From a virus: a stretch of DNA of 33,503 bases. The notes beneath the pieces were generated by a model that searched no databases, was not told where the DNA came from, and saw only the letters and a program-made list of their open reading frames with translations. Within the stretch, counting starts at the first letter, position 1; each line of letters starts with the position of its first letter. The position numbers and the translations under genes are program-made. The stretch spans positions 1 to 33,503 of IMG/VR virus record IMGVR_UViG_3300045747_000353. One strand, written 5' to 3'. This document shows, in pieces, positions 1 through 32,181 of the stretch.

Positions 1-179
1 CACTGCCCCTCTTAGGTCGTTCAAGTATTTTATCTCCACAACAATACAAGACACTTAGGCCGTTTGCAAGGCTCTCACACCATATGTAAGTACACTACCA
101 AGAGTCCGATTCTTGCTAGGACGCATCAACTTTGTGTTTGCAACCACTAGGTATAACCTCGTCATAATATACTTGCATA
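1..179. other. Unresolved structured region downstream of the tRNA array
   Basis: I see no convincing gene. On the minus strand the segment contains a 5-bp/7-nt hairpin (CAAGA...TCTTG, plus 100-116) and other short complementary arms, but no canonical T loop. It could be degraded tRNA sequence or a further non-standard RNA like those at 4618-5203. The left end is cut by the window. Confidence 0.3.
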
Positions 180-255
180 TGGTAGGACCACCGAGACTCG
201 AACTCGGAACTGGCGGATTAAAAGTCCGCTGTGATAACCATTTCACTATGATCCC
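180..255 (-). tRNA. tRNA-Lys(TTT)
   Basis: The cloverleaf is complete on the minus strand. The acceptor is GGGATCA with TGGTCCT, the anticodon arm is GCGGA/TCCGC with loop CTTTTAA (anticodon TTT), the T arm is CCGAG-TTCGAGT-CTCGG, the discriminator is A and CCA is encoded. It lies close to tRNA-Lys(CTT) and is the last recognisable tRNA of the array. Confidence 0.93.
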
Positions 256-260
256 ATATA

Positions 261-335
261 TGGTCCTCCGCCACAGACTCGAACTGTGTTCTTCCGGTTA
301 AGAGCCGGTTGCTTCACCACTAAAGCTTGCAGAAG
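261..335 (-). tRNA. tRNA-Lys(CTT)
   Basis: The acceptor CTTCTGC pairs with GCGGAGG through two G-U pairs. The D arm is GCTT...AAGC, the anticodon loop CTCTTAA gives CTT, the T arm is CACAG-TTCGAGT-CTGTG and CCA is encoded. The 27-43 pair is an A-A mismatch. Confidence 0.85.
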
Positions 336-454
336 GTGTTACGTATTTGTTTGTCTTTTACGTGCCACCTTAAACCATACATGGGGGTTTAAAGTGACAC
401 TATAGTTTAGCTGAACTTCGCTTCATATATAGTACCTCTTTTGTTTATGTGTTA

Positions 455-483
455 ATTATACAGCGTTTTTGGTACGCTGTCAA
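455..483 (-). promoter_or_regulatory. Sigma70-type promoter with palindromic spacer
   Basis: On the minus strand this has a perfect TTGACA, a 17-nt spacer and a perfect TATAAT. It lies just after the response-regulator gene and reads toward the two tRNA-Lys genes. A 7-bp inverted repeat (ACAGCGT...ACGCTGT) spans the -35/-10 interval, so it could be an operator; as RNA it would also form a hairpin. Confidence 0.8.
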
Positions 484-486
484 CCA

Positions 487-888
487 CTATTTTTTAGAAT
501 TTGCCTTGTAGCTCGAAATCGCTACTCGTGCTAAAGATTGATGAACCCAATTTATTACATCAGGAATATGTGCAGGCTTTGTAAAGTACCTATCGGCTTT
601 ATGCTCAAGGATCCCTTCTTCGATATCTCTTTTTTCACTGTTTCCTGTGATAAGAGCAACTTTGGTTCCTTCTAACGCAGGGTTTGATCTTATGTAATCT
701 AACACTGCATAACCACCTACATCTGGCATAACAACATCAAGTAAAACAACCATTGGTTTATTTTCTTTTAATATTGAAATAGCTTCTTCACCACCCGATG
801 CTACTACTATGTGACAAGAATCTTTTAAAACTGTTGTCCATAGTAGGCGCATTTCTTTTCGATCATCAACAATCAGCACTGCTGGCAT
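487..888 (-). CDS. Response-regulator receiver-domain protein (CheY-like)
   Basis: This 133-residue protein is a stand-alone receiver domain with no output domain. The acidic pair D8/D9, the phospho-acceptor D51 (VVLLDVVMPD), T81 (ALITGN) and K104 (FTKPA) match the family's phosphorylation site, so it is probably phosphorylatable. The start follows AGGAG at a 7-nt distance. It lies directly downstream of the phosphatase gene. A phage-borne receiver could intercept a host histidine-kinase relay, possibly in the general stress response or chemotaxis, but its partner cannot be seen. The family call is secure and the role is inference. Confidence 0.88.
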   Translation of the reverse strand: MPAVLIVDDRKEMRLLWTTVLKDSCHIVVASGGEEAISILKENKPMVVLLDVVMPDVGGYAVLDYIRSNPALEGTKVALITGNSEKRDIEEGILEHKADRYFTKPAHIPDVINWVHQSLARVAISSYKANSKK

Positions 889-917
889 AATTAACTCCTA
901 GTGATTGTATTTACTAG

Positions 918-1418
918 TTAACCGGAGTTTCCATCCTTGATGCGATACCCGGTAATCATGTCATAGTCTTGCCAATTACCTAAATCGAACTGTTCTTTCT
1001 CATCGTATGTCCAACCTAGCACCTTCATCATCTTGTGCTTCACGAGTACATTCGGACTACGAAAGCGATCAGTATCATCAAACCCCATCTTGATTCCGAT
1101 TTCAGCGACTGCACCGCTACGACATATACCTGCGTAGCAATGTACAATAACATTCATATCGTTGTCAAGTGCTCGTTGCAGTAATGCCACAAGCTGGCCT
1201 GCTTGAACATCACTTATGCGACATTCTTCGTCAAATATAGTATCCGTTTCTTCGATATCTAGGAACTCGAATCTATGAGATTCCATAAAGTCATGCTTTG
1301 CTTCTGGCCACCAGGAGGTAGCAGTATCCATAATTTGGATAAGCATTGAACGTGGCCCAGGATCTTTGTGAAACGCCTTATTCATATCGTCGGCTGCTGC
1401 GTTTTGAATGAATGGCAT
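918..1418 (-). CDS. Dual-specificity protein phosphatase-like protein
   Basis: This 166-residue protein carries the cysteine-phosphatase signature HCxxGxxRSG at residues 93-102 (H93, C94, R100, S101), with the expected hydrophobic strand before it. It should hydrolyse phosphate from Ser/Thr/Tyr through a cysteinyl-phosphate intermediate. An upstream aspartate (D68 or D70, in CRISDVQ) could be the general acid. Similar small phosphatases occur in T4-like phages. The start follows AGGAGA, and a strong sigma70 promoter lies at 1438-1466. The adjacent receiver gene suggests that the two interfere with host phospho-signalling. Confidence 0.85.
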   Translation of the reverse strand: MPFIQNAAADDMNKAFHKDPGPRSMLIQIMDTATSWWPEAKHDFMESHRFEFLDIEETDTIFDEECRISDVQAGQLVALLQRALDNDMNVIVHCYAGICRSGAVAEIGIKMGFDDTDRFRSPNVLVKHKMMKVLGWTYDEKEQFDLGNWQDYDMITGYRIKDGNSG

Positions 1419-1437
1419 ATCTTTCTCCTAAAATTTA

Positions 1438-1466
1438 ATTATAATATCAGTTTTACCTGATGTCAA
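1438..1466 (-). promoter_or_regulatory. Sigma70-type promoter with palindromic spacer
   Basis: TTGACA, 17 nt, TATAAT on the minus strand, 20 nt upstream of the phosphatase start codon and just after the 3' end of tRNA-Arg. The spacer contains ATCAG...CTGAT, a second example of an inverted repeat between promoter boxes. Confidence 0.8.
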
Positions 1467-1470
1467 CCGT

Positions 1471-1545
1471 TGGTCTCCCCGGATGGAATCGAACCACCAT
1501 TCCTAAGTTCGTAGCCTAGTGTATTATCCATTATACTACGGGGAG
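1471..1545 (-). tRNA. tRNA-Arg(ACG)
   Basis: The acceptor CTCCCCG/CGGGGAG is perfect, the anticodon loop CTACGAA gives ACG, the T loop is TTCGATT, the discriminator is A and CCA is encoded. It is the only Arg tRNA I recognise in the window. Confidence 0.93.
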
Positions 1546-1552
1546 AAAAATT

Positions 1553-1626
1553 TGGTGCGATGTAAAGGAATCGAACCTTTGTGTCTGTCGAGTCAGAACA
1601 GTGCTCTACCATTGAGCTAACAAAGC
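1553..1626 (-). tRNA. tRNA-Val(GAC), imperfect acceptor
   Basis: The D arm (GCTC...GAGC), the anticodon arm with loop CTGACTC (GAC) and the T arm AAAGG-TTCGATT-CCTTT are good. The acceptor GCTTTGT versus ACATCGC has two mismatches and position 37 is T, which is unusual. It may be decaying or edited. CCA is encoded. Confidence 0.65.
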
Positions 1627-1630
1627 AAAT

Positions 1631-1720
1631 TGGCGGAAGATAATGGAATCGAACCATCCGCAGCTCATCGCCACAGGAACAACTTTCCAAGTTGCTTAGT
1701 GCCCAGCACTTCTACCTTCC
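1631..1720 (-). tRNA. tRNA-Ser(GGA)
   Basis: This is a class II tRNA with a long variable arm. The acceptor is GGAAGGT/ATCTTCC, the anticodon loop TTGGAAA gives GGA, the T loop is TTCGATT, the discriminator is G and CCA is encoded. Its first base overlaps the TAG stop of the upstream gene (1720-2160). Confidence 0.9.
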
Positions 1721-2160
1721 TATTGTTGTTTTACTGCTTGAAGTGTTTGTTTTAACTTTTCGTCAGTTTGAATTGTGTTATTCTTGAGTGACTGTATTAC
1801 AACTTCTTTAGGCTTCTGCAAATCAATCGCTTTTTGTTGTGCTTCGGTAATCTTCGGAGCAGCAACAGGTGCCTGTGTAATTATGTTTACCGGTAATGCA
1901 GGTAGTTGTGCAACTTGCTTTGTTGGAATCATTACAGATAACAGTACTTGTAATTGACCATTAACTGTTTGCAGGTGCATCACTTGCTCTTCTAATCTCT
2001 TATTTGTCTCGGACATCTGCTCTTGCAGTGCCTTTTCCTTTGCGTACCGTGCATCTATTGTGATTGCTACCGGCACTGCTGATACAACAGCAATAATAAC
2101 TGCTGCGATACCAAATGTACCTAACTTAGATATTGTTTCGCTTAATTCTTTTATGCTCAT
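1720..2160 (-). CDS. Membrane-anchored coiled-coil protein, function unknown
   Basis: This 146-residue protein is not recognised. Residues 14-34 form one hydrophobic segment (likely transmembrane), and residues 40-75 are charged with heptad-like spacing suggesting a coiled coil (QEQMSETNKRLEEQV). A Pro/Ala-rich linker and a Lys/Gln-rich tail follow. The start has an AAGGA ribosome site 8 nt upstream. It lies between the small secreted protein and tRNA-Ser, and its stop codon overlaps the tRNA by one base. The plan resembles small spanin- or holin-accessory proteins, but nothing specific supports that. Confidence 0.7.
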   Translation of the reverse strand: MSIKELSETISKLGTFGIAAVIIAVVSAVPVAITIDARYAKEKALQEQMSETNKRLEEQVMHLQTVNGQLQVLLSVMIPTKQVAQLPALPVNIITQAPVAAPKITEAQQKAIDLQKPKEVVIQSLKNNTIQTDEKLKQTLQAVKQQ

Positions 2161-2169
2161 ATCAGTTCC

Positions 2170-2409
2170 TTAGTAATTTGCTATATAACCCCACGCATTA
2201 TACTGCGAGGCAAAGCAATTAGTACCAACTGGTTGCGGATTTACATGTGCTACAACTTGTTGAGGAATTTGTTGTCCGTACTGATTAACTGCAAAATATT
2301 GGATAACACAAATGTTTCCGAATATTTGTCCGTTTTGCGCTTGCCATAGCATCGATGATGCAGGTAACGCTAAACATAAAAGAAGTAATATAATAAGTTT
2401 CTTGAACAT
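2170..2409 (-). CDS. Small secreted protein
   Basis: This 79-residue protein starts MFKKLIILLLLCLALP, a clear signal peptide of about 20 residues. The mature part is Gln/Asn-rich with two cysteines (ICVIQ, NCFAS), which may pair in the periplasm. I start it at the ATG (2409) just after a TATAAATA box rather than further upstream, where the frame would run through a tRNA. No Shine-Dalgarno is visible. The next gene starts 10 bp downstream. Function unknown. Confidence 0.65.
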   Translation of the reverse strand: MFKKLIILLLLCLALPASSMLWQAQNGQIFGNICVIQYFAVNQYGQQIPQQVVAHVNPQPVGTNCFASQYNAWGYIANY

Positions 2410-2413
2410 ATTA

Positions 2414-2421
2414 TATTTATA
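2414..2421 (-). promoter_or_regulatory. T4-type late promoter box TATAAATA
   Basis: An exact T4 late-promoter -10 element on the minus strand, ending 4 nt before the ATG of the small secreted protein. A transcript from it would be leaderless or nearly so. Confidence 0.5.
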
Positions 2422-2427
2422 CTTAAT

Positions 2428-2552
2428 TGGTGGCGACCCAGGGATTCGAACCCCGACTCCGTCCTGATAATGGAAGTGTATTTGTAGTGCGGAAAACATC
2501 CTTGCCAGGATGCGCTTTTTTACTACGTGTGCTACCGTTACACTAAGTCGCC
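2428..2552 (-). tRNA. Interrupted tRNA, probably Ile(TAT), with ~49-nt insertion after the D arm
   Basis: The ends form a good tRNA: acceptor GGCGACT/GGTCGCC, D arm GTGT...GCAC, T arm CGGGG-TTCGAAT-CCCTG, discriminator A and encoded CCA. The gene is 125 nt long. If about 49 nt after position 26 are removed, an anticodon arm with loop ATTATCA (TAT) remains. The insertion folds as nested hairpins (GTAGT...ACTAC, CATCC...GGATG). Its AAAAAA..CATCCT and AGGATG..TTTTCCGC parts resemble the flanks of the permuted tRNAs at 4618-5022, in reverse order. It is an intron-like element or a damaged gene. Confidence 0.55.
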
Positions 2553-2562
2553 GAAAAATAAC

Positions 2563-2621
2563 AGGATCAACTTTTATTTTCATTTACAGTGAAATTTTAT
2601 TAAGTTTGCTGAACTGATCCT
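2563..2621 (-). ncRNA. 59-nt tRNA-like element 1 (anticodon-like GTA)
   Basis: The 7-bp outer stem AGGATCA/TGATCCT is followed by the conserved TTCAGCAA, then a perfect 5-bp/7-nt arm TTTCA-CTGTAAA-TGAAA whose loop is identical to a canonical tRNA-Tyr(GTA) anticodon loop. There is no T arm and no encoded CCA; GTTATTTTT follows the stem. It starts five nt after the CCA of tRNA-Val(TAC). Three related copies lie at 4748, 7619 and 7848. Confidence 0.55.
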
Positions 2622-2626
2622 AAAAC

Positions 2627-2700
2627 TGGTACCTCGTTGGAGAATTGAACTCCCATCAACGGTATGTAACACCGCTATTCTACCATTAAACTACCGAGGC
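2627..2700 (-). tRNA. tRNA-Val(TAC)
   Basis: The acceptor is GCCTCGG/ACGAGGT with one mismatch, the anticodon loop GTTACAT gives TAC, the T loop is TTCAATT, the discriminator is A and CCA is encoded. Confidence 0.85.
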
Positions 2701-2704
2701 ATAA

Positions 2705-2828
2705 AAAGGTTTTTGGGAGCATCTTTCGATGTTGTCTCGAGAAAGGGAGATCTTGTTTCTTTCACGTTAAACCCGCGGTGTATTGCTACAGCGCCGCTAC
2801 TTACGACTCAAACCTAACCGTCTATCCC
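2705..2828. other. Structured stretch, possible non-coding RNA
   Basis: No T loop or reading frame is visible. On the minus strand it opens with GGGAT and closes with GCTCCCA. It contains GAG-ACAA-CATC-GAAA-GATG-CTC, a nested stem capped by a GNRA loop, and a GCGG...CCGC stem. It could be a degenerate tRNA or a separate RNA; I cannot name it. Confidence 0.3.
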
Positions 2829-2871
2829 AAAATGAGAACATACTAGCGTAATATAAGTATGTTCTCATTTT
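2829..2871. terminator. Long hairpin, possible bidirectional terminator or processing site
   Basis: A perfect 15-bp inverted repeat (AAAATGAGAACATAC / GTATGTTCTCATTTT) encloses a 13-nt loop, and the outer bases give U-runs in both directions. It begins immediately after the CCA of tRNA-Thr(GGT) on the minus strand, so it may end or process tRNA transcripts. Confidence 0.55.
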
Positions 2872-2945
2872 TGGTGCTGAATGCGGGAATCGAACCCACG
2901 TAAGCTACGTACCAAGCAGCTAGGTTACCACTACATCAATTCAGC
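2872..2945 (-). tRNA. tRNA-Thr(GGT)
   Basis: The acceptor GCTGAAT/ATTCAGC is perfect, the anticodon arm GCTGC/GTAGC has loop TTGGTAC (GGT), the T loop is TTCGATT, the discriminator is A and CCA is encoded. The D arm is weak. Confidence 0.88.
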
Positions 2946-2951
2946 TATTAT

Positions 2952-3029
2952 TGGTGCCCAGGATGGGATTCGAACCCACACTGTACGGTTTCTAAAACCG
3001 TTGTCTCCTACCAATTGCACTACCTGGGC
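2952..3029 (-). tRNA. tRNA-Leu(TAG) with short variable region
   Basis: The acceptor GCCCAGG/CCTGGGC and the anticodon arm ACGGT/ACCGT with loop TTTAGAA (TAG) are perfect, the T loop is TTCGAAT and CCA is encoded. Leu tRNAs normally have a long variable arm, but here it is only about 5 nt. The last codons of the 67-residue gene overlap its 5' end. Confidence 0.85.
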
Positions 3030-3223
3030 TTAAATGGATCTTCTTCCGGACTAATTACAGGAGTATAATCAGGCGTAGTTGGCTTCACGTCTAACGGAGC
3101 CGGTATTGTATCTGCAAATTGATTCTCGAGCGCAATATTCGAGTCTAAGAACTCTTGCCAGAGCGAATCACTAAATGATTCATACACATCAGGTACTGGG
3201 ATTGCGTCTGTTGGGAGCTTCAT
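3020..3223 (-). CDS. Small acidic proline-rich protein, hypothetical
   Basis: This 67-residue protein is not recognised. It is acidic and proline-rich (PAPLDVKPTTPDYTPVISPE), probably disordered, without a signal peptide or membrane segment. The start ATG lies 5 nt after a CTAAATA late-promoter-like box, the pattern seen before other genes here. It fills the gap between the RNase P RNA and tRNA-Leu and runs 10 bases into the tRNA. It could be a chance frame. Confidence 0.45.
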   Translation of the reverse strand: MKLPTDAIPVPDVYESFSDSLWQEFLDSNIALENQFADTIPAPLDVKPTTPDYTPVISPEEDPFKPR

Positions 3224-3237
3224 AAAATTATTTAGTA

Positions 3238-3643
3238 TTCAACACTCCGTAGCCGGGATTCTGTTCTATGCTAACATTAATCTATACCAAGTTCAATCAC
3301 TACACTTACCTCCAGCACATTACATTAAGGTAGTTAATTCCGCCCGAATTTTTCAAGGTAATGCAACTAACAAGGAGAGTTGTTAGATCAAACTTAAATA
3401 TTCTCCCCGGGTTTCAATCCGGATCATTGATGCCACAACCCGCACCTATAAGCAAAAGGTTCCCAGGTGCTGTTTGTGTTGCACACTATATCACGGTAGT
3501 ATTAACGAGGATACTGCTACAACCAAAAAGGTCTTAGCCCAACTTTCATCGCAATATTGCTATTCCTTTGAAGTGCCTCTCCTACTCGCCCTTTGCGTGT
3601 GTCCCGAACTTCCTGACTTGCGCCCGTTAGCTCGAATGTTGAA
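3238..3643 (-). ncRNA. rnpB: RNase P RNA (catalytic subunit)
   Basis: This is about 406 nt on the minus strand. The two ends form an 11-bp P1 helix (TTCAACATTCG with CGGAGTGTTGAA, one G bulged). The 5' conserved block reads AGGAAGTTCGGGAC and the 3' block ACAGAATCCCGGCTA, close to bacterial AGGAAAGUCCGGGC and ACAGAAYCCGGCUUA. They pair as P4 with the expected single bulged U. An internal GCACC...GGTGC hairpin fits P12. The product should cleave 5' leaders from pre-tRNAs, using a host or undetected phage protein subunit. It sits among the tRNA genes, and the upstream endonuclease frame ends inside its P1. Confidence 0.87.
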
Positions 3644-4190
3644 ATCGTTTAGCATTAGCGATATTGTTTCCTAACATACGCTGATGCTTTTGTTCTTTAA
3701 GTATGTTAGCTTTTTCTTCGCCCAACATTTCTATATGTGTTCTACCTGCAAGTTTATCTCGGACATTGTCGCCCCATCCTGCTGGCATCGTGCGTCCCTT
3801 ATACCATCCGTGTGGTATAGCATCGCTCTTGTTTGTTTTAACATTTTCAGTACCGTTAGTGATCCACATCTTACCAAACTGTGAATTTTTATCACCCGGA
3901 CCACCGTAGCCTCCTTGCAGACCATCTTCGGGTTCTAAGTTAGCCCAATCTGCTGATTCTACTATGTTATTCTTTGCACTAAAATCTAATGCAGTGGCTA
4001 CACATTCGTCTTTGTCTGTATAGTAGCCTAATATTTCTGTTGTAACATTGTTACCGTGATAGTTAATGTGATTTAACCATCTTGTGCCCGACCCTTTATA
4101 CTTGGATGGATCTTTAGTGATCGTTTTTCCAAAGTATTTTAAGCCAGTGTCGTTGTGCGTTTTAATGTATAAGTAAGTGGGTTTGAACAT
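3627..4190 (-). CDS. GIY-YIG homing endonuclease
   Basis: About 187 residues. The N-terminal YLYIKT..(8)..YFGKT is a GIY-YIG motif variant; the C-terminal SQFGKMWITNG...IPHGWYKGRT is a DNA-binding repeat shared with the second GIY-YIG gene at 5288. It should nick or cut a homing site and drive its own spread. I use the ATG at 4190 because an upstream ATG overlaps the GATAAATA late box. The stop codon lies 17 bases inside the RNase P RNA, and a second copy of the RNase P RNA 5' end sits just upstream (4219-4257). Confidence 0.85.
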   Translation of the reverse strand: MFKPTYLYIKTHNDTGLKYFGKTITKDPSKYKGSGTRWLNHINYHGNNVTTEILGYYTDKDECVATALDFSAKNNIVESADWANLEPEDGLQGGYGGPGDKNSQFGKMWITNGTENVKTNKSDAIPHGWYKGRTMPAGWGDNVRDKLAGRTHIEMLGEEKANILKEQKHQRMLGNNIANAKRFQHSS

Positions 4191-4195
4191 ACACT

Positions 4196-4203
4196 TATTT
4201 ATC
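4196..4203 (-). promoter_or_regulatory. Late-promoter-like box GATAAATA
   Basis: On the minus strand, 5 nt before the chosen ATG of the GIY-YIG endonuclease. It fits the T4 scheme in which free-standing homing endonucleases are expressed from late promoters. Confidence 0.4.
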
Positions 4204-4218
4204 ATTTCTCAATAAAAA

Positions 4219-4257
4219 CGAACTTCCTCTGTTGCCAGCGTTAGCTCGAATGTTGAA
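4219..4257 (-). repeat. Partial duplicate of the RNase P RNA 5' end
   Basis: The P1 strand and following bases (TTTCAACATTCGAGCTAACG, then 12 divergent nt, then GGAAGTTCG) repeat those at 3605-3644. This copy has AGAGGAAGTTCG, slightly closer to the bacterial consensus than the copy joined to the rest of the RNA. It is probably the displaced original end, left when the endonuclease gene inserted. Confidence 0.75.
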
Positions 4258-4261
4258 AAAT

Positions 4262-4335
4262 TGGTGCCTTATGGCAGAATCAAACTGCCGCAATCTGATT
4301 ACGAAACAGATGTACTGTCACTATACGAAAAAGGC
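4262..4335 (-). tRNA. tRNA-Thr(CGT)
   Basis: The acceptor GCCTTTT/ATAAGGC has one mismatch, the D arm is GTAT...GTAC, the anticodon loop TTCGTAA gives CGT with a mismatched closing pair, the T arm is GGCAG-TTTGATT-CTGCC, and CCA is encoded. Confidence 0.78.
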
Positions 4336-4340
4336 AAATT

Positions 4341-4417
4341 TGGTACCCCTGGTCGGATTCGAACCGACATCCAAAAACTTTTAAGGCTGTCCGCACTACC
4401 AATTAGCGTACAAGGGC
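4341..4417 (-). tRNA. tRNA-Leu(TAA) with short variable region
   Basis: The acceptor GCCCTTG/CAGGGGT pairs with wobbles, the anticodon loop CTTAAAA gives TAA, the T arm is GTCGG-TTCGAAT-CCGAC, and CCA is encoded. As in the other Leu tRNA here, the variable region is class I length. Confidence 0.78.
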
Positions 4418-4425
4418 ATTAACTG

Positions 4426-4512
4426 TGGCTGAGGGAGTAGGACTTGAACCTACATACTCTTTATGAGCGCTGATTTCAAAGACCAGTGTGGCTACCATTT
4501 CACCATCCCCCA
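4426..4512 (-). tRNA. tRNA-Gln(TTG) with enlarged variable arm
   Basis: TGGGGGA/TCCCTCA with discriminator G matches Gln identity (U1-A72, G73). The anticodon arm CTGGT/ATCAG has loop CTTTGAA (TTG) and CCA is encoded. Unusually, the variable region is about 17 nt and can form a small hairpin (CTC...GAG). Confidence 0.8.
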
Positions 4513-4520
4513 ATAATATA

Positions 4521-4612
4521 TGGTACGAGCGGAGAGGATCGAACTCTCTCAAGAAGGCTAATCTGGCCCTAAAAGTCTTATAAGGACTCTCTGACTTCCA
4601 AGTCTCGCTCGC
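4521..4612 (-). tRNA. tRNA with TAT anticodon and long variable arm (Ile?)
   Basis: The acceptor GCGAGCG/CGCTCGT, the D arm GACT-TGGA-AGTC, the T arm GAGAG-TTCGATC-CTCTC and encoded CCA are clear. The anticodon loop CTTATAA gives TAT (Ile AUA). A variable arm AGGGC...GCCTT is present, which no ordinary Ile tRNA has, so the charged amino acid is uncertain. Confidence 0.75.
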
Positions 4613-4617
4613 ATAAC

Positions 4618-4731
4618 AGGTTCTGCTTTTAAGTGCTGCCACTACACTAACACAGTGACTAACTCTGTGTCCGGGATTCGAACCCGGCCTCTTCATTTTG
4701 GAGATGATTAATTAATTGCTGTAAAGAACCT
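4618..4731 (-). tRNA. Candidate circularly permuted tRNA-Trp(CCA)
   Basis: The 3' half comes first: anticodon arm with loop CTCCAAA (CCA) at 4692-4708, T arm CCGGG-TTCGAAT-CCCGG, acceptor ACACAGA and discriminator G at 4663. A 6-nt linker follows, then the 5' half at 4632-4656: ACTGTGT, TA and a D arm GTGT...GCAC. ACACAG pairs with CTGTGT across the linker. The outer ends AGGTTCT and AGAACCT are complementary and carry the flanks (ACAGCAA; TTAAAAGC...CCTGTTAT) seen in five other elements. The order D-anticodon is broken at positions 26/27. CCA is not encoded. A normal tRNA-Trp lies at 8075. Confidence 0.7.
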
Positions 4732-4747
4732 AATAGTCAAAAATAAC

Positions 4748-4807
4748 AGGATCAACTTTTTAGTTTGAGAATGAATCAAATTTTATTAAGTTTGCTGAAC
4801 TGATCCT
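4748..4807 (-). ncRNA. 60-nt tRNA-like element 2 (anticodon-like CAT)
   Basis: The outer stem is AGGATCA/TGATCCT and its first 30 nt are identical to element 1. The inner arm differs but still pairs: TTTGA-TTCATTC-TCAAA, with CAT at the anticodon position. No T arm is present. It ends CCTGTTATTTTT. Confidence 0.5.
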
Positions 4808-4812
4808 AAAAC

Positions 4813-4893
4813 TGGTGCTTGCTACGGTTCCCCGTACAGTAAGGCTAACTAGACTATGTCGTCCTTATATGCTACTCTTTACATTAAACAAGC
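4813..4893 (-). pseudogene. Degenerate tRNA or tRNA-like RNA
   Basis: The ends look like a tRNA (GCTTGTT with AGCAAGC, discriminator A, encoded CCA). The T arm is TACGG-GGAA-CCGTA, with a tetraloop in place of a T loop, and the anticodon region is an 18-nt loop closed by TAAGG/CCTTA. It is unlikely to be a working elongator tRNA as read. Confidence 0.45.
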
Positions 4894-4902
4894 GAATAAA
4901 AC

Positions 4903-5022
4903 AGGATGCCTTTTTATTGACGGCTTTCAAGGCCGGTGCTCTACCTTAGAGCGTACTACGCATGGAGCGTGGTGTCGGAATCGAACCAACTGATCATAAA
5001 TGATCGTTGCTGCAAGCATCCT
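4903..5022 (-). tRNA. Candidate circularly permuted tRNA-Ser(TGA)
   Basis: The 3' half comes first: a variable-arm hairpin GATCA-TTTA-TGATC, T arm GTTGG-TTCGATT-CCGAC, acceptor ACCACGC, discriminator T and encoded CCA (4963-4965). The 5' half follows directly: GCGTAGT, D arm GCTC...GAGC, anticodon arm with loop CTTGAAA (TGA). The acceptor strands pair at 6 of 7 positions. The junction falls at the base of the variable arm. The outer stem AGGATGC/GCATCCT and the flanks TTGCAGCAA and AATAAAAAG match the other elements of this family. No ordinary Ser(TGA) gene was found. Confidence 0.68.
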
Positions 5023-5029
5023 AAAATGA

Positions 5030-5203
5030 ATAAGCAGACTGAAATAAGAGTCAAGGGGAATCGAACCCATCATTTCCACCATCCAGGCGCTCTCATGCCC
5101 GTTTCAGTCAGGCTCTGCTTAACTTGGGGGCGTCTGCCGGGTTTGACCGGCGCCTTCGGTCATATACCGACCGATATACTTACTTTATACTAAGCTACCC
5201 ATA
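5030..5203. other. Non-canonical tRNA-like segments
   Basis: Two segments on the minus strand have tRNA parts that do not assemble. Near 5050-5066 is a T arm (ATGGG-TTCGATT-CCCCT), enclosed by an outer stem AGCAGA..CTGAAA / TTTCAGTCTGCT. Near 5126-5203 is a D-arm-like start, a 6-bp/7-nt arm TCGGTC...GACCGA lacking U33, and a T-like arm GCCGG-TCAAAC-CCGGC followed by CCCCCA. They may be further permuted, split or decayed tRNAs. Confidence 0.35.
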
Positions 5204-5207
5204 AACT

Positions 5208-5281
5208 TGGTCTCGGTAGAAAGAATCGAACTTTCGCTTCTACGTCCCAAACGTAGGGTGATACCATTTCACTACACCGAG
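5208..5281 (-). tRNA. tRNA-Pro(TGG), copy 1
   Basis: The acceptor is CTCGGTG/TACCGAG, the anticodon arm CTACG/CGTAG has loop TTTGGGA (TGG), the T loop is TTCGATT and CCA is encoded. It lies 6 nt downstream of the GIY-YIG gene stop. Confidence 0.9.
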
Positions 5282-5287
5282 ATAATA

Positions 5288-5950
5288 CTATATGACTCTA
5301 CCTTTCCGCCATCCTTCGGGAATGGCGGAAGTCTTGTTAACTGATAAACTTTCTTTTCCATCGGTTATCCACATTTTTCCAAATTGAGAATTAGCAGACC
5401 CTTGTTGATGGGCTATTTTTTTATATGTTTCTTTTTTCTTCTCTTGTGAAGCAGGTAATGCTGCTTGCTCACATCCTTTAGCTCTCGACTTGCGATACAA
5501 TTCTTCCATCGCTTGATCACCTTTCCAAACCGTTCGAAGTTGCTTAAATGCGGATCGCGAAGCGTCTTTCCACTTTTTGCAAATTTCTTCACTCCACAGA
5601 TGCTTATTTGCGTAAAAACCAGCTTTACCTACTTTTGTTCTCTGTGCAGGAGTTAATATTTTGTTTATATAGTCAAATCCGCCGGTACCGCCTCTTCGCA
5701 AATTGTAAACATCATCTCTTGCTAAGAATTCGTCAGTAACAACTTCTTTTTCTCGAGCAAACATGTCTTTTGAATTATCAAAAGTTTCTAAAATAGTTTT
5801 AGTAAAGTATTCGATACCATATTTGCGTATTGCGTTAGAAATAACTTTACCTGAGCCCATATATCCGTCATCTAGTGACTTCGTTTTATGGACTCCCACA
5901 TAAATCTTACCGTTAACGGTATTTTTAATTTCGTACAAATAGTAATGCAT
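5288..5950 (-). CDS. GIY-YIG homing endonuclease (Seg-like)
   Basis: 220 residues. The N-terminal YLYEIKNTVNGKIYVGVHKT is a classic phage GIY-YIG start, followed by DDGYMGSGK and an acidic helix with E68 in the catalytic region (REKEVV). The C-terminal SQFGKMWITDGKESL...IPEGWRKGR is a DNA-binding module shared with the gene at 3627. It should make site-specific breaks for homing. It lies between two tRNAs, one being a plausible target locus. The ATG follows CATAAATA at 4 nt, suggesting late expression. Confidence 0.92.
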   Translation of the reverse strand: MHYYLYEIKNTVNGKIYVGVHKTKSLDDGYMGSGKVISNAIRKYGIEYFTKTILETFDNSKDMFAREKEVVTDEFLARDDVYNLRRGGTGGFDYINKILTPAQRTKVGKAGFYANKHLWSEEICKKWKDASRSAFKQLRTVWKGDQAMEELYRKSRAKGCEQAALPASQEKKKETYKKIAHQQGSANSQFGKMWITDGKESLSVNKTSAIPEGWRKGRVI

Positions 5951-5954
5951 ACTT

Positions 5955-5962
5955 TATTTATG
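5955..5962 (-). promoter_or_regulatory. Late-promoter-like box CATAAATA
   Basis: Minus strand, 4 nt before the ATG of the GIY-YIG gene; same arrangement as at 2414, 4196 and 6700. Confidence 0.4.
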
Positions 5963-5971
5963 CGTAACCTG

Positions 5972-6054
5972 TGGGTAGCTGAGGAATCGAACCCCAACCA
6001 TTTCTAGTCCTGCTGTGTTCGAAACAGTGGTATGCCCAGCATACATAACTACCC
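5972..6054 (-). tRNA. tRNA-Ser(CGA)
   Basis: Class II. The acceptor is GGGTAGT/GCTACCC, the anticodon loop TTCGAAC gives CGA, a long variable region follows, the T arm is TGGGG-TTCGATT-CCTCA and the discriminator is A. The next bases are CAG, so CCA is not encoded here. Confidence 0.8.
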
Positions 6055-6062
6055 ATAAACTT

Positions 6063-6137
6063 TGGCATCCTGTGCGGGAATCGAACCCGCATTACCGACT
6101 TGAAAGGCCAGCGTTCTAACCATTAAACTAACAAGAT
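6063..6137 (-). tRNA. tRNA-Glu(TTC), copy 1
   Basis: The acceptor is ATCTTGT/ACAGGAT, the anticodon loop CTTTCAA gives TTC, the T arm is GCGGG-TTCGATT-CCCGC, the discriminator is G and CCA is encoded. Confidence 0.92.
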
Positions 6138-6169
6138 ATAAATTGGTCTGTGTACTTGCCACAATATTT

Positions 6170-6245
6170 TGGTCTCCCATGAAGGACTCGAACCTTCGAT
6201 TTCCTCGTTCCAAACAAGGAGGCATAGCCGCTAGCCCAATGAGAG
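6170..6245 (-). tRNA. tRNA-Pro(TGG), copy 2
   Basis: The acceptor is CTCTCAT/ATGGGAG, the anticodon arm CCTTG/CGAGG has loop TTTGGAA (TGG), the T arm is GAAGG-TTCGAGT-CCTTC and CCA is encoded. The HNH gene stop codon lies inside its D region. Confidence 0.9.
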
Positions 6246-6695
6246 TTTAATTTTCCATTGTTTGATATAATTTAACACTATATCTTCAATAATATGTTTG
6301 TACTTGCTGTGCCAGTAATGATGATGCGTTGGGCACAACGGAATAAGATTAGACGGATCATTGTTCTTTTTATTATGATCTAAGTGATGTACTACTACAA
6401 TCTTATCTTCTTCGCATACTACGCATTTCTTTTTATGATACGCAAAGCAAGTTGTTTGATATCGGTCTTGTTTCCAATTCCCGTGATTTTCGCCTGTCCT
6501 AAATAATTTATTAGAACAACTATGAGAACAAGTTCCTTTACTATTTTTGAAATCCTTTATAGGATTTCCACATACTAAACAATCCCTTTTATTAACGGGA
6601 TCAAGATAGCACGAGTTTGTGTGTCGCGTTACGCTATGCGGGAATATAAGTTTCTCACAATGAACGCATTTAATTTTAGTTGCGGTGTTTAACAT
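6231..6695 (-). CDS. HNH endonuclease with zinc fingers
   Basis: 154 residues. Cysteine pairs CVHC (about residue 10), CLVC and CSHSC suggest N-terminal zinc-binding knuckles. The C-terminal half has an HNH core: CVVC..., VVHHLDHNKKNNDPSNLIPLC, HHHYWH. It is likely a homing endonuclease. The start is the ATG at 6695, just after a TATAAATA box. The last 15 bases overlap the 5' end of tRNA-Pro, so insertion was tight against the tRNA. Confidence 0.9.
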   Translation of the reverse strand: MLNTATKIKCVHCEKLIFPHSVTRHTNSCYLDPVNKRDCLVCGNPIKDFKNSKGTCSHSCSNKLFRTGENHGNWKQDRYQTTCFAYHKKKCVVCEEDKIVVVHHLDHNKKNNDPSNLIPLCPTHHHYWHSKYKHIIEDIVLNYIKQWKIKLSLG

Positions 6696-6699
6696 TATG

Positions 6700-6707
6700 T
6701 ATTTATA
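6700..6707 (-). promoter_or_regulatory. T4-type late promoter box TATAAATA
   Basis: An exact TATAAATA on the minus strand, ending 4 nt before the HNH ATG and immediately after a 17-bp hairpin (6707-6750). Confidence 0.55.
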
Positions 6708-6750
6708 CAAACGGTTCAGTTTGTAGTATTTTTCAAACTGAACCGTTTGT
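6707..6750. terminator. 17-bp perfect hairpin upstream of the HNH gene
   Basis: ACAAACGGTTCAGTTTG pairs perfectly with its downstream complement around a 10-nt loop. On the minus strand it separates upstream tRNAs from the late promoter and HNH gene. It may stop early read-through or serve as an RNase III site. Confidence 0.6.
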
Positions 6751-6762
6751 CACAGATAAAAT

Positions 6763-6833
6763 TGGTGCACCTAAGGAGAATCAAACTCCTCTACTTCTGG
6801 CTTCAAATCCAGCTAGTAATATCAATCTAGCGC
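6763..6833 (-). tRNA. Poorly folded tRNA, anticodon ambiguous (TTG or TGA)
   Basis: A T arm AGGAG-TTTGATT-CTCCT, discriminator A and encoded CCA are present. The acceptor has one mismatch and several wobbles, the D loop lacks GG, and the anticodon arm is CTGG-ATTTGAAG-CCAG with an 8-nt loop. It is possibly a decaying tRNA. Confidence 0.45.
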
Positions 6834-6838
6834 ATAAA

Positions 6839-6914
6839 TGGAGCGGGTAGCCAGTATCGAACTGAGCTATTCAAGTTTGGAAGACTAGTGTGTATCCGTA
6901 AACACCTTACCCGC
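6839..6914 (-). tRNA. tRNA-Gly(TCC)
   Basis: The acceptor GCGGGTA/TACCCGC is perfect, the D arm is GTGT...ACAC, the anticodon loop CTTCCAA gives TCC, the discriminator T fits Gly, and CCA is encoded. The anticodon and T stems each have one mismatch. Confidence 0.85.
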
Positions 6915-6923
6915 ATTAAACTT

Positions 6924-6999
6924 TGGTGCAACCTACAGGGATCGAACCTGTTTCAATGGCTCTTCAGACCACCGCTATGACCACATCAGCTAAAGTTGC
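6924..6999 (-). tRNA. tRNA-Phe(GAA)
   Basis: The acceptor is GCAACTT/AGGTTGC, the anticodon loop CTGAAGA gives GAA, the T arm is ACAGG-TTCGATC-CCTGT, the discriminator is A and CCA is encoded. Confidence 0.93.
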
Positions 7000-7005
7000 A
7001 TATAT

Positions 7006-7079
7006 TGGGTTGAACTGGGGAATCGAACCCTCCCTAACTGTTTCACAGACAGTTGTGCATCCATTACACTAAGAACAAC
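7006..7079 (-). tRNA. tRNA-His(GTG)
   Basis: The anticodon arm ACTGT/ACAGT has loop CTGTGAA (GTG). Discriminator C and an extra 5' G (G-1) opposite it are His identity marks, and CCA is encoded. The acceptor TTGTTCT/AGTTCAA has two U-U mismatches. Confidence 0.85.
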
Positions 7080-7085
7080 ATTGAT

Positions 7086-7163
7086 TGGCTCCGCACTCAG
7101 GAATCGAACCTGATTAAACAGTGATTAACAGTCACGGCCTTGTCCATACTTGGCTTCTGCGGA
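7086..7163 (-). tRNA. tRNA-Asn(GTT), copy 1
   Basis: The acceptor is TCCGCAG/GTGCGGA with discriminator G, as usual for Asn. The anticodon loop CTGTTAA gives GTT, the T loop is TTCGATT and CCA is encoded. Confidence 0.88.
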
Positions 7164-7171
7164 ATAAAAAT

Positions 7172-7247
7172 TGGCTGGCAAACCTGGGCTCGAACCAGGG
7201 ACATTTTGATTAACAGTCAAACGCTCTACCAACTGAGCTATATGCCA
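7172..7247 (-). tRNA. tRNA-Asn(GTT), copy 2
   Basis: The acceptor is TGGCATA/TTTGCCA, the D arm GCTC...GAGC, the anticodon arm TTTGA/TCAAA has loop CTGTTAA, the discriminator is G and CCA is encoded. It differs from copy 1 in most stems, so it is not a recent tandem copy. Confidence 0.9.
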
Positions 7248-7254
7248 ATATTTG

Positions 7255-7328
7255 TGGTGCCCCATGACAGAATCGAACTGCCATTACCTGATTACAAAAC
7301 AGGTGGTCTACCATTAACCTAATGGGGC
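7255..7328 (-). tRNA. tRNA-Thr(TGT)
   Basis: The acceptor GCCCCAT/ATGGGGC is perfect, the anticodon loop TTTGTAA gives TGT, the T arm is GGCAG-TTCGATT-CTGTC, and CCA is encoded. It shares the mismatched 31-39 pair with tRNA-Thr(CGT). Confidence 0.88.
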
Positions 7329-7364
7329 GTAATTTTAACTTGTATAAGTAATTATACATTACTG

Positions 7365-7439
7365 TGGTAGCCTGTGCAAGATTTGAACTTGCGGCCAACG
7401 CCTTATCAAGACGCTGCTCTACCCCTGAGCTAACAGGCT
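7365..7439 (-). tRNA. tRNA-Ile(GAT), copy 1
   Basis: The acceptor AGCCTGT/ACAGGCT is perfect, the anticodon loop TTGATAA gives GAT, the T loop is TTCAAAT, and CCA is encoded. Confidence 0.92.
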
Positions 7440-7447
7440 ATACACTT

Positions 7448-7522
7448 TGGTACCCAGAACAAGAATCGAACTTGTAATTTCCGCTTATCAGGCGAATATT
7501 ATAACCATTTAATTACCCGGGC
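7448..7522 (-). tRNA. tRNA-Ile(GAT), copy 2
   Basis: The acceptor GCCCGGG/TCTGGGT uses wobble pairs, the anticodon arm TTCGC/GCGGA has loop CTGATAA (GAT), and CCA is encoded. Confidence 0.85.
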
Positions 7523-7533
7523 ATACTAAAACT

Positions 7534-7608
7534 TGGCGATGCGTGGGAGAATCGAACTCCCGTCTACGGATAGACAATCCGCGATAATAACCATTATATG
7601 AACGCACC
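7534..7608 (-). tRNA. tRNA-Asp(GTC), copy 1
   Basis: The acceptor is GGTGCGT/ACGCATC, the anticodon loop TTGTCTA gives GTC, the discriminator G fits Asp, and CCA is encoded. Confidence 0.88.
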
Positions 7609-7618
7609 TTAAAATAAC

Positions 7619-7676
7619 AGGATAGCTTTTGTCGCTAGACAACCATAGTTAGCTTTTTGTTTGCTGTAACTATCCT
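7619..7676 (-). ncRNA. 58-nt tRNA-like element 3
   Basis: The outer stem AGGATAG/CTATCCT and the flanks TTACAGCAA and AAAAG..CCTGTTATTTT match elements 1, 2 and 4. The centre forms a TTGTC-TAGC-GACAA hairpin instead of a 5-bp/7-nt arm, so an anticodon is not evident. It follows the CCA of tRNA-Gln by 5 nt. Confidence 0.45.
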
Positions 7677-7681
7677 AAGAC

Positions 7682-7755
7682 TGGTACGGGTAGAAGGAAT
7701 CGAACCTTCACTAACAGAGTCAAAGTCTGTTGTGCTACCACTACACAACACCCGA
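7682..7755 (-). tRNA. tRNA-Gln(TTG), copy 2
   Basis: The anticodon arm ACAGA/TCTGT has loop CTTTGAC (TTG), the T arm is GAAGG-TTCGATT-CCTTC and CCA is encoded. The first acceptor pair is U-U and the discriminator is A, unlike the Gln gene at 4426. Confidence 0.8.
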
Positions 7756-7763
7756 ATAAAAAT

Positions 7764-7838
7764 TGGCGCCGTAGACGAGAATCGAACTCGCCTAAATCAC
7801 ATCGACAGTGTGGTACTCTCCCAGAGAGTGACTACGGC
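7764..7838 (-). tRNA. tRNA-Asp(GTC), copy 2
   Basis: The acceptor GCCGTAG/CTACGGC is perfect, the D arm is ACTC...GAGT, the anticodon loop CTGTCGA gives GTC, the discriminator is G and CCA is encoded. Confidence 0.88.
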
Positions 7839-7847
7839 AAATATAAC

Positions 7848-7906
7848 AGGATAGTTTTTACGGTTTCAATTAAAAGTTGAATGTAATTGGTTGCTGAACC
7901 TATCCT
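7848..7906 (-). ncRNA. 59-nt tRNA-like element 4 (anticodon-like TTT)
   Basis: The outer stem is AGGATAG/CTATCCT, followed by GGTTCAGCAACC. The inner arm TTCAA-CTTTTAA-TTGAA is perfect, and its loop equals the canonical tRNA-Lys(TTT) anticodon loop, also found in the Lys tRNA at 180. There is no T arm; the tail is GTTATATTT. Confidence 0.55.
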
Positions 7907-7911
7907 AAAAC

Positions 7912-7986
7912 TGGTGGAGGCCGGGGGTATCGAACCCCACTAGACATGATCATTGCAAGTGAACACCGCAGCCCTCTGCTGCCCCC
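7912..7986 (-). tRNA. tRNA-Ala(TGC)
   Basis: The acceptor is GGGGGCA/GGCCTCC with one mismatch, the D arm GCAG...CTGC, the anticodon loop CTTGCAA gives TGC, the T arm is TGGGG-TTCGATA-CCCCC and CCA is encoded. Confidence 0.8.
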
Positions 7987-7991
7987 ATAAC

Positions 7992-8067
7992 TGGAATCAC
8001 GTACGGGAATCGAACCCGCCTGCACAGGATGAAAGCCTGCTGACCTAACCCAGAAGTCCAACGTGAT
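7992..8067 (-). tRNA. tRNA-Glu(TTC), copy 2
   Basis: The acceptor ATCACGT/ACGTGAT is perfect, the anticodon arm GCAGG/CCTGT has loop CTTTCAT (TTC), the T loop is TTCGATT and CCA is encoded. The discriminator is T, where copy 1 has G. Confidence 0.85.
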
Positions 8068-8074
8068 ATAAAAC

Positions 8075-8149
8075 TGGCATACCCCCTTGGATTCGAACCA
8101 AGCCTAACGGTTTTGGAGACCGACGTGCTGCCGCTGACACTAGGGATAC
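8075..8149 (-). tRNA. tRNA-Trp(CCA), normal order
   Basis: The acceptor is GTATCCC/GGGGTAT, the D arm GTGT...GCAC, the anticodon loop CTCCAAA gives CCA, the T arm is CTTGG-TTCGAAT-CCAAG, the discriminator is G and CCA is encoded. Its D arm resembles that of the permuted Trp gene at 4618. Confidence 0.9.
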
Positions 8150-8208
8150 ATAACTAATTGAAGTCCTGCTTGACATTGTAGTGCAGGTAACTGTGTCGTC
8201 TTCAAACT

Positions 8209-8298
8209 TGGTGGATGCGATAGGAGTTGAACCTATACAGTCTTATTTGTACGCGGGTGGGTTACAGCCACTTGAGCTCACCAATGCTCGGCACATCC
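8209..8298 (-). tRNA. tRNA-Tyr(GTA), copy 1
   Basis: Class II. The acceptor is GGATGTG/CGCATCC, the D arm GAGC...GCTC, the anticodon loop CTGTAAC gives GTA, a long variable region follows, the T loop is TTCAACT and CCA is encoded. Confidence 0.85.
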
Positions 8299-8303
8299 AT
8301 ATA

Positions 8304-8387
8304 TGGTGGACAGTGTTGGATTCGAACCAACGTGCAGTTACGAGCGGATTTACAGTCCGCCACCTTCGGCCTCTCGGTCAACTGTCC
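8304..8387 (-). tRNA. tRNA-Tyr(GTA), copy 2
   Basis: Class II. The acceptor GGACAGT/ACTGTCC and the anticodon arm GCGGA/TCCGC with loop CTGTAAA are perfect, the T arm is GTTGG-TTCGAAT-CCAAC and CCA is encoded. It is the first clear tRNA of the array in transcription order. Confidence 0.95.
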
Positions 8388-8418
8388 ATATAATTTAACA
8401 CACTCTGTTGAATGTGTA

Positions 8419-8492
8419 TGTTAAAGCAGACTAACTAAGCTATGCCCCGTCACTAGATTCAGAGTCTAGTCGTTCGTTAGTCTGCTTTAACA
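8419..8492 (-). ncRNA. Tall hairpin RNA with Gln(CTG)-type anticodon arm
   Basis: A 17-bp perfect inverted repeat (8419-8435 / 8476-8492) encloses CTAGA-CTCTGAA-TCTAG, whose loop equals a canonical Gln(CTG) anticodon loop. GGGGCATAGCTTAGTTAG, resembling the 5' part of a tRNA, precedes the closing strand. No T arm is present. It resembles the 59-nt elements but has a different outer stem. Confidence 0.45.
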
Positions 8493-31687: not shown

Positions 31688-32181
31688 GTCTAATCTGTAG
31701 TTAGAAGCGAGCAAAGCTCACTTGAGATGTCGCTTATCGCTCATCTCTTTTATAGAGAGAAGATATATTATCCAGATTCTGGAGTCAGATTTTGCCCTTT
31801 TTACGGGCAAAAAAAATGAAATTATCCGAGTTCCTTTCATCGGTAGCATGTGGCGTGTATAGAGGCGGTCATCCGGTACCTCGAGCCATGATCTTATATA
31901 TGACGGCGGACTGTACATGCAAGCTACCACATATACAGCCGTGGGAGTACTACTCCCTCATTTAGCCTTTGGTGAAACATATTCAAACAGCAAAATCGGT
32001 TGTACGTAGGCGTATCCGATCATCATCCTTGCGGGTAGTTGCTAAGTACTTTTTTTGACCAAAAAGAATTTACTGTCCCCGTGACCCTAGGTCCGGTTAT
32101 CATAGGCACACGGAATAAGCCTGTGCAAGCATCATGTCATAGTTGTTTATTATATAACAAATCTTAAAGTACATGTTTGGT

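Follow-up and report, generated by a model that had tools for sequence, protein, structure and literature searches.

Circularly permuted tRNA genes, in which the 3' half comes first and rotation restores a canonical tRNA, are described from algae and archaea (review PMC3978253). Two-piece tmRNAs likewise derive from a permuted gene of a tRNA-like RNA, occur in phages too, and consist of separate, charged halves. Among ordinary phage tRNAs, some counter the host defences PARIS, retron-Eco7 and PrrC (PMC12409363, PMC11555353), and anticodon-loop mutations are described among phage tRNAs that counter tRNA-targeting defences (PMC10264068). Finally, the Class I RNAs of Dictyostelium, termed unique to dictyostelids or social amoebae, combine a covarying closing stem, an A(A)G start, a CUGU end and a variable interior with an 11-nt motif, CCUUACAGCAA, whose U3, C6, C9, A10 and A11 are nearly invariant (PMC7919456).

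Permuted tRNA genes, anti-defence phage tRNAs and Class I RNAs are the known neighbours of the scaffolded tRNA-module RNAs described here, a family that we rate as new in kind; in the open-access literature, together with few subscription papers and preprints, we found no report of phage permuted tRNA genes or of scaffolded anticodon-arm RNAs. The customary view of a phage tRNA array is one of tRNA genes separated by spacers, and it is in the spacers that this sizeable family hides, displaying anticodon arms and permuted tRNAs and escaping both ARAGORN and the Rfam cut-offs. Its permuted members would extend permuted tRNA genes beyond eukaryotes and archaea.

The window, that is, the whole stretch of DNA analyzed, is a 33,503-base linear IMG/VR virus record with a tRNA array on the minus strand (positions 1-8,400) that comprises 28 genes according to ARAGORN. 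We confirmed the circularly permuted tRNA-Ser(TGA)-like gene of the original prediction exactly at 4903-5022 and placed it on the minus strand, which the prediction had left unspecified. The element is built as follows, with the evidence in brackets:

4903..5022, minus strand: Ser-type element, in which the scaffold surrounds a permuted tRNA-Ser(TGA)-like body (flank pattern, ARAGORN, fold, covariation)
5016..5022, minus strand: P1 5' strand AGGATGC (complementary to 4903-4909; family-wide P1 covariation)
5007..5012, minus strand: CAGCAA scaffold motif, preceded by TTG (constant distance, 7 nt after AGG)
4992..5005, minus strand: variable-arm hairpin GATCA-TTTA-TGATC (ARAGORN, fold)
4974..4990, minus strand: T arm GTTGG-TTCGATT-CCGAC (ARAGORN, covariation)
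4955..4973, minus strand: acceptor stem as a closed hairpin with one A.C mismatch, made up of 3' strand ACCACGC (4973-4967), loop TCCAT (4966-4962) and 5' strand GCGTAGT (4961-4955) (ARAGORN, relatives, covariation)
4938..4952, minus strand: D arm (ARAGORN)
4920..4936, minus strand: anticodon arm CCGGC-CTTGAAA-GCCGT, loop CTTGAAA (TGA) (ARAGORN)
between the anticodon arm and the P1 3' strand, minus strand: AATAAAAAG
4903..4909, minus strand: P1 3' strand GCATCCT, then conserved GTT (GTTTT here) (P1 covariation)

As had been claimed, the 3' half precedes the 5' half: ARAGORN calls the rotated sequence as a canonical tRNA-Ser(tga) of 87 nt with a single A.C mismatch in the acceptor, and the junction at the variable arm is likewise supported. 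The MFE fold of the unrotated strand contains P1 and the variable, T, acceptor, D and anticodon arms (-41.9 kcal/mol, z = -4.0, 0 of 200 shuffles as good), with the flanks folding as a continuous P1 that includes an internal loop. Across 15 Ser-type sequences, 90.7% of pairs are kept compared with 32-43% when slid, and two-sided changes are found at 14 of the 33 pairs, 5 of which belong to the acceptor stem.

The flanks were also said to be shared with a Trp case, and such an element does lie at 4731-4618 in the same scaffold. Altogether, the scaffold flanks occur in six copies in the window, two of them around permuted tRNAs and four with only ~35 nt inside; that the latter are 'empty' was rejected, as three of them enclose anticodon arms and the fourth a different hairpin. 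These elements, and the ordinary tRNA genes with which they can be compared, are:

4618..4731, minus strand: Trp-type element, in which the shared scaffold surrounds a tRNA-Trp(CCA)-like body, permuted and led by its anticodon arm (ARAGORN)
4734..4739, minus strand: TGACTA, upstream pseudoknot strand with the Trp-type acceptor loop (covariation)
4656..4661, minus strand: TAGTCA, acceptor-loop pseudoknot strand (covariation)
4748..4807, minus strand: mini element, anticodon arm TTTGA-TTCATTC-TCAAA (CAT) (flank pattern)
7848..7906, minus strand: mini element, anticodon arm TTCAA-CTTTTAA-TTGAA (Lys TTT), UAAU at 36-39 (flank pattern)
2563..2621, minus strand: mini element, anticodon arm TTTCA-CTGTAAA-TGAAA (Tyr GTA) (flank pattern)
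7619..7676, minus strand: mini element with a different hairpin, GCTAAC..GTCTAGC (flank pattern)
8075..8149, minus strand: ordinary tRNA-Trp(CCA) (ARAGORN)
180..255, minus strand: ordinary tRNA-Lys(TTT) (ARAGORN)
8304..8387, minus strand: ordinary tRNA-Tyr(GTA) (ARAGORN)

The Trp case is likewise borne out by ARAGORN, although its free-energy fold is no better than shuffles (z = -1.1). Window elements for Trp, Lys and Tyr coexist with ordinary genes of matching anticodons, and the Trp-type element is redundant for decoding because an ordinary tRNA-Trp(CCA) gene lies in the same array. The hairpin family of the mini element at 7619-7676 recurs in L079, L115, L156 and L207.

Across the family, the scaffold consensus reads TTT-AGG[A/T]TNN-NNN-CAGCAA ... 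AAAA-NN-NN[A/T]CCT-GTT[A/T], with 7 nt between AGG and CAGCAA in every case and with P1 positions 4, 6 and 7 co-varying pairwise through up to four pair types. Since CAGCAA, GG and GTT were built into the search patterns, their invariance carries no independent weight, unlike the spacing in the first scan. Permuted cargo comes in two orders: in the Trp type the tRNA body is attached on the 3' side of the anticodon arm, and in the Ser type on its 5' side. In one Trp-like family, the sequence just upstream of P1 forms a covarying pseudoknot with the acceptor loop, whose versions are GACCA/TGGTC (in most), TGACTA/TAGTCA (in the window) and TACCTA/TAGGTA (in Synechococcus phage BUCT-ZZ01); a pseudoknot common to all element types was rejected, as it is limited to this TTGGTC-type family. 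In a third class, the 5' half retains nucleotides 27-28 of the anticodon stem, and in most members these pair with positions 42-43 in the 3' half (CT/AG, TT/AA, CG/CG). No splice-site consensus was found at element junctions.

We also observed the same scaffold around other kinds of cargo, such as non-permuted tRNA bodies that lack an acceptor stem of their own, or T-arm and acceptor minihelices that lack an anticodon arm (L047 3510-3414 minus; L152 at about 2875; L038 7049-7139; L083 1093-1192; L090 3976-3891 minus). A further cargo consists of conserved RNAs of ~120-150 nt unrelated to tRNA, with the motifs GTTGAAGG, TATTGAAATAG and GAGTGATGGCC or, alternatively, CTGGAGCC..GGCTTTGAAGG (L036 2858-2696 minus; L098 6664-6825; L109 1848-2009; L034 8575-8738; L043 1166-1331; L058 9457-9626; L110 852-684 minus). 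The L036 copy has no Rfam match at E<=5, and an rRNA origin of this ~140-nt cargo was rejected, its matches to E. coli rrnH being short and due to chance.

Besides one cultured cyanophage, at least 100 contigs from IMG/VR bear elements of this type. The pattern with a T loop between the flanks gave at least 119 stretches in viral contigs, about two thirds of them true as judged by P1 complementarity, and the T-loop and short-form patterns with a complementarity filter gave at least 320 distinct elements in at least 157 loci, a few of these being chance matches; reversed-pattern controls on whole records gave zero. Using the short-form pattern on 84,980 prokaryote genomes, we obtained 11 matches with no element among them, judged to be chance because P1 was not extended and there was no anticodon arm. 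With the window element as query, blastn against 50,697 phage records returned no match, and relatives were therefore found by pattern. The sole cultured carrier found, BUCT-ZZ01 (Kyanoviridae), has two short elements and one of Trp type, located around 122.1-122.3 kb and 113.1-113.2 kb in ON615601.1; a Lak megaphage was rejected as a carrier, the pattern being absent from Lak-A2. An assembly artefact or one-off rearrangement was likewise rejected, as scores of independent contigs show the same arrangement, and so was an attC-like or other DNA recombination site, which leaves the U33/R37 loops and the tRNA covariation unexplained.

The short forms comprise at least 175 mini elements whose cargo is at most 48 nt. 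Of the minis listed, 59% have an arm of 5 bp and 7 nt that carries U33 and R37, vs. 1.6% of shuffles, and P1 and arm pairing reaches 96.1% vs. 34-44% when slid, with 71 cells of two-sided change vs. 0-10. Anticodon usage is strongly skewed: TTT occupies 45 of the 127 canonical-loop short elements listed (35%) vs. 2.6% of ordinary tRNAs, followed by TGA (14), TGT (10), GTA (9), TCT (8) and GTT (6). Among the U36-class minis listed, 67 of 69 have U39, and with it UAAU at 36-39, compared with U39 in 112 of 228 ordinary tRNAs of the same anticodons and contigs (p = 3e-15, though Fisher p-values are indicative only here, since sequences related by descent overstate independence). Mini loops retain the natural 37/38 nucleotides (AAA or UAA), pairs 29:41 and 30:40 vary freely, and positions 40-43 change with compensation, which leaves A31-CUNNUAA-U39 as the fixed block. 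Nucleotides 40-41, where AriB cleaves, are not conserved: the C and A that flank the E. coli Lys cut occur in only 6 of the 45 Lys minis listed.

We favor, as an even call, the reading that the locus is a tRNA mimic and not a tRNA for translation, one of a series of scaffolded decoys for tRNA-attacking host enzymes. This reading builds on the structure, conservation and covariation of the elements, their lack of CCA, their variable anticodons and the UAAU conservation of the minis; from these we infer that the elements would be expressed, bound and of anti-defence benefit. The tRNA array is presumably one transcription unit, in which the scaffold (the closing helix P1, a 5' CAGCAA and a 3' AAAA, and the fixed flanks TTTAGG/CCTGTT) would present tRNA modules—a bare anticodon arm, a permuted whole tRNA body or, more rarely, other tRNA parts—and permutation of the body would serve to put the scaffold next to the anticodon arm. 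Each element would fold unprocessed into a tRNA-shaped RNA with its ends in P1 and its acceptor end shut by a short loop, so that neither splicing nor charging would be required. The working part would be the anticodon arm, which would bind and tie up host enzymes that recognize such arms, most probably defence nucleases (AriB of PARIS, PrrC and similar), and the phage's real tRNAs would be spared. If this is true, phages bait tRNA nucleases with RNA, and the displayed anticodon predicts the nuclease of the host.

AriB of PARIS depletes tRNA-Lys(UUU), Thr(UGU) and Asn(GUU), targets that share U36AAU39, and a U39->A change abolishes cleavage (PMC12409363). A bait that is bound yet poorly cut fits the retention of UAAU alongside unconserved nucleotides 40-41. 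Cleavage of T5 tRNA-Lys was not regained when the AriB site was grafted onto it (PMC12409363), so AriB needs more than UAAU, and it also requires distal contacts. Because the loop CTTGAAA of the window Ser element is a normal Ser(UGA) loop without UAAU, the AriB argument covers the minis and not this copy; a Ser-type element would have to address another enzyme. AriB is only the best-documented example. Like the anti-defence phage tRNAs (T5/PARIS, SP15/retron-Eco7, tRNA-Lys/PrrC), the elements are encoded in phage tRNA arrays; unlike these tRNAs, which are ordinary, charged, and resistant or over-supplied, the elements are not chargeable in their unprocessed form, and the recognition motif UAAU is retained in the U36-class minis. 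Counting against the decoy reading, an anticodon change abolished the protection that phage tRNA-Tyr gives against retron-Eco7; the authors of that study presumed its function in translation to be important (PMC11555353). The failure of the AriB graft, the CCA plus spacer of three loci discussed below, and the 27-28/42-43 pairing across halves in one class, which also fits a splicing product, point the same way.

Comparison with known RNA families returned no known ribozyme or Rfam family above threshold for the elements with Rfam covariance models. The nearest was Dictyostelium Class I RNA (RF01414), which short elements match at E <= 1 in 16 of 16 element-bearing records tested, a level that 7 of 14 control genomes also reach; the best score is 36.9 bits (E 2e-7), and none of the 16 records exceeds the 41.5-bit cut-off. 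Five of the six RF01414 matches in the window are scaffold elements. The two have in common a covarying closing stem, the ends AGG...CCTGTT vs. AAG...CUGU, CAGCAA next to the stem's 5' strand, a variable interior, and a length of about 55-65 nt in the mini form. In the 11-nt motif, C6, C9, A10 and A11 are found in all elements by search design, and position 3 is unconserved. Unlike Class I RNAs, the elements score below the cut-off, do not conserve the upstream half of that motif, carry tRNA-derived cargo, and occur in phages and not in amoebae. The scaffold shares some defining features of Class I RNA and fails its curated score, a resemblance that makes it a possible relative for the Dictyostelium RNAs. 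A modular phage decoy array whose Class I-type scaffold has a common origin with the Dictyostelium RNAs of that class is a tentative and rather doubtful proposition.

The same resemblance allows a Class I-like regulatory or structural RNA, in which the scaffold would bind a protein and the arms would titrate modifying enzymes, synthetases or ribosomal sites. We consider this fairly unlikely: the RF01414 matches in all records tested speak for it, as do the natural 37/38 nucleotides (AAA/UAA), which modification enzymes also read, but the scores remain under the Rfam cut-off, and the bias toward Lys(UUU) and U39 fits the reported nuclease motif.

Translation itself is an unlikely role for the elements, since CCA is rare in permuted copies: it follows the acceptor in 8 of the 106 copies parsed among the matches listed (an automatic parse that includes some misparsed entries), vs. 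2221 of 2343 ordinary tRNAs (95%) of the same contigs. The CCA that the window copy had been said to encode is present as letters within the loop TCCAT, but this loop is one base off TTCAT, the commonest in relatives, and is therefore not a conserved CCA end. Fourteen Ser-type relatives keep the variable arm but differ in the anticodon loop, with examples including CTTGAAA, TTAAACA and CTCCATG as well as loops of 5-6 nt (TTACAC and TTCCAA, 6 nt each, and TTCAC); such loops on one conserved body indicate that the relatives preserve neither Ser identity nor a standard loop. Translation is made unlikely, too, by the engagement of the Trp-type acceptor loop in the pseudoknot and by the ordinary Trp, Lys(TTT) and Tyr genes in the same array, and scaffold copies with bare anticodon arms cannot be tRNAs. 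The original prediction had seen no ordinary Ser(TGA) gene and supposed that the permuted copy may be needed. The former is true of the 33.5-kb linear fragment by ARAGORN, but the closest relative among the matches listed (L071) has an ordinary Ser(TGA) gene at 1161-1250, and bare arms in the scaffold, varying loops and the mostly absent CCA argue further against a needed copy. The prediction is thus partly supported in its interpretation, as to a permuted tRNA-shaped gene and not as to a supplier of required tRNA-Ser(UGA).

For a true permuted tRNA, the outer ends would be cut and then joined, either through a scaffold that acts like a ribozyme or through a nuclease together with an RNA ligase, and RNase P and 3' processing would open the acceptor loop, yielding a charged tRNA-Ser(UGA) that decodes UCA. 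We regard this as unlikely, even though rotation gives a clean tRNA-Ser(tga), TCCAT can be read as N73-CCA, and the fragment has no ordinary Ser(TGA) gene. Some distant relatives (L013, L082 and L090) have CCA with a spacer of 8-17 nt and could be working permuted tRNAs, and the cross-junction pairing of nucleotides 27-28 seen in one class fits a stem that is continuous after splicing. Set against these points are the 98 of 106 listed copies without CCA, the non-Ser and 5-6 nt loops that relatives have on the same body, the bare anticodon arms within identical flanks, and the ordinary gene of L071. Splicing of the bulge-helix-bulge (BHB) type is not known from phages. Unlike the algal and archaeal permuted genes, the elements are found in phages, share a conserved scaffold, have their junctions at the base of the anticodon or variable arm, usually lack CCA, have acceptors mostly closed by 3-7 nt, and have sisters that consist of an anticodon arm only.

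Similarly unlikely, in our view, is a scaffold for circularization or RNA processing, from which the cargo is excised as small circular RNAs that are the stable, active form. The fixed AGG-N7-CAGCAA spacing and the near-invariant unpaired nucleotides beside P1 resemble a catalytic or recognition core, the permuted order and closed acceptor loops would complete a circle, and the cargo is highly varied; against it, no known ribozyme is matched and the junctions have no splice-site consensus.

We give little credence to a two-piece tRNA, in which only the acceptor loop is cut, P1 and the arms join the halves, and the nicked tRNA decodes unligated. All arms are present in the unspliced RNA fold, and permuted tmRNA genes are a precedent, two-piece tmRNA being functional unligated and BUCT-ZZ01 having an RF04321 match, but two-piece tmRNAs have no such scaffold, and this reading is opposed by the lack of CCA, acceptor loops of 3-6 nt, non-decoding loops and the mini elements. 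Functionless degenerate tRNA genes, recombined in an array rich in homing endonucleases, retain almost no probability: although the array contains HNH and endonuclease VII-type genes and some weak tRNAs, strong covariation and a scaffold conserved in well over 100 contigs, with zero matches in the reversed-pattern control, refute this for the whole element family.

Several further RNA features were observed alongside the family. In BUCT-ZZ01, a tmRNA region (L128 12947-13347) matches beta_tmRNA and tmRNA_permuted (RF04321) where the record has no annotated feature. A second scaffold type, AAGTTAAGCAGAGCCTGACTGAAACGGGCATGA ... ATTATTTCAGTCTGCTTATT, occurs in the window (5032-5120 minus) and in L071 (1067-1156 minus), conserved between the two around a ~45-nt cargo that differs (T-arm-like in the window). 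Also on the minus strand of the window, a long hairpin, AAGCAGACTAAC/GTTAGTCTGCTT, surrounds an anticodon-arm-like CTAGA-CTCTGAA-TCTAG (CTG) at 8424-8487, and a CCA-ended tRNA-like gene at 2430-2553, which receives no ARAGORN call, has a ~50-nt insertion with the hairpin GCATCCTGGCAAGGATG. At 3300-4260 (minus), AACATTCGAGCTAACG...GGAAGTTCG flanks ORF 3627-4205 on both sides, as if this ORF, possibly a homing endonuclease and with no Pfam match, had been inserted into a structured RNA or duplicated part of one. Finally, positions 31985-32131 (minus) match Polynucleobacter-1 RNA (RF01718) at 87.5 bits.
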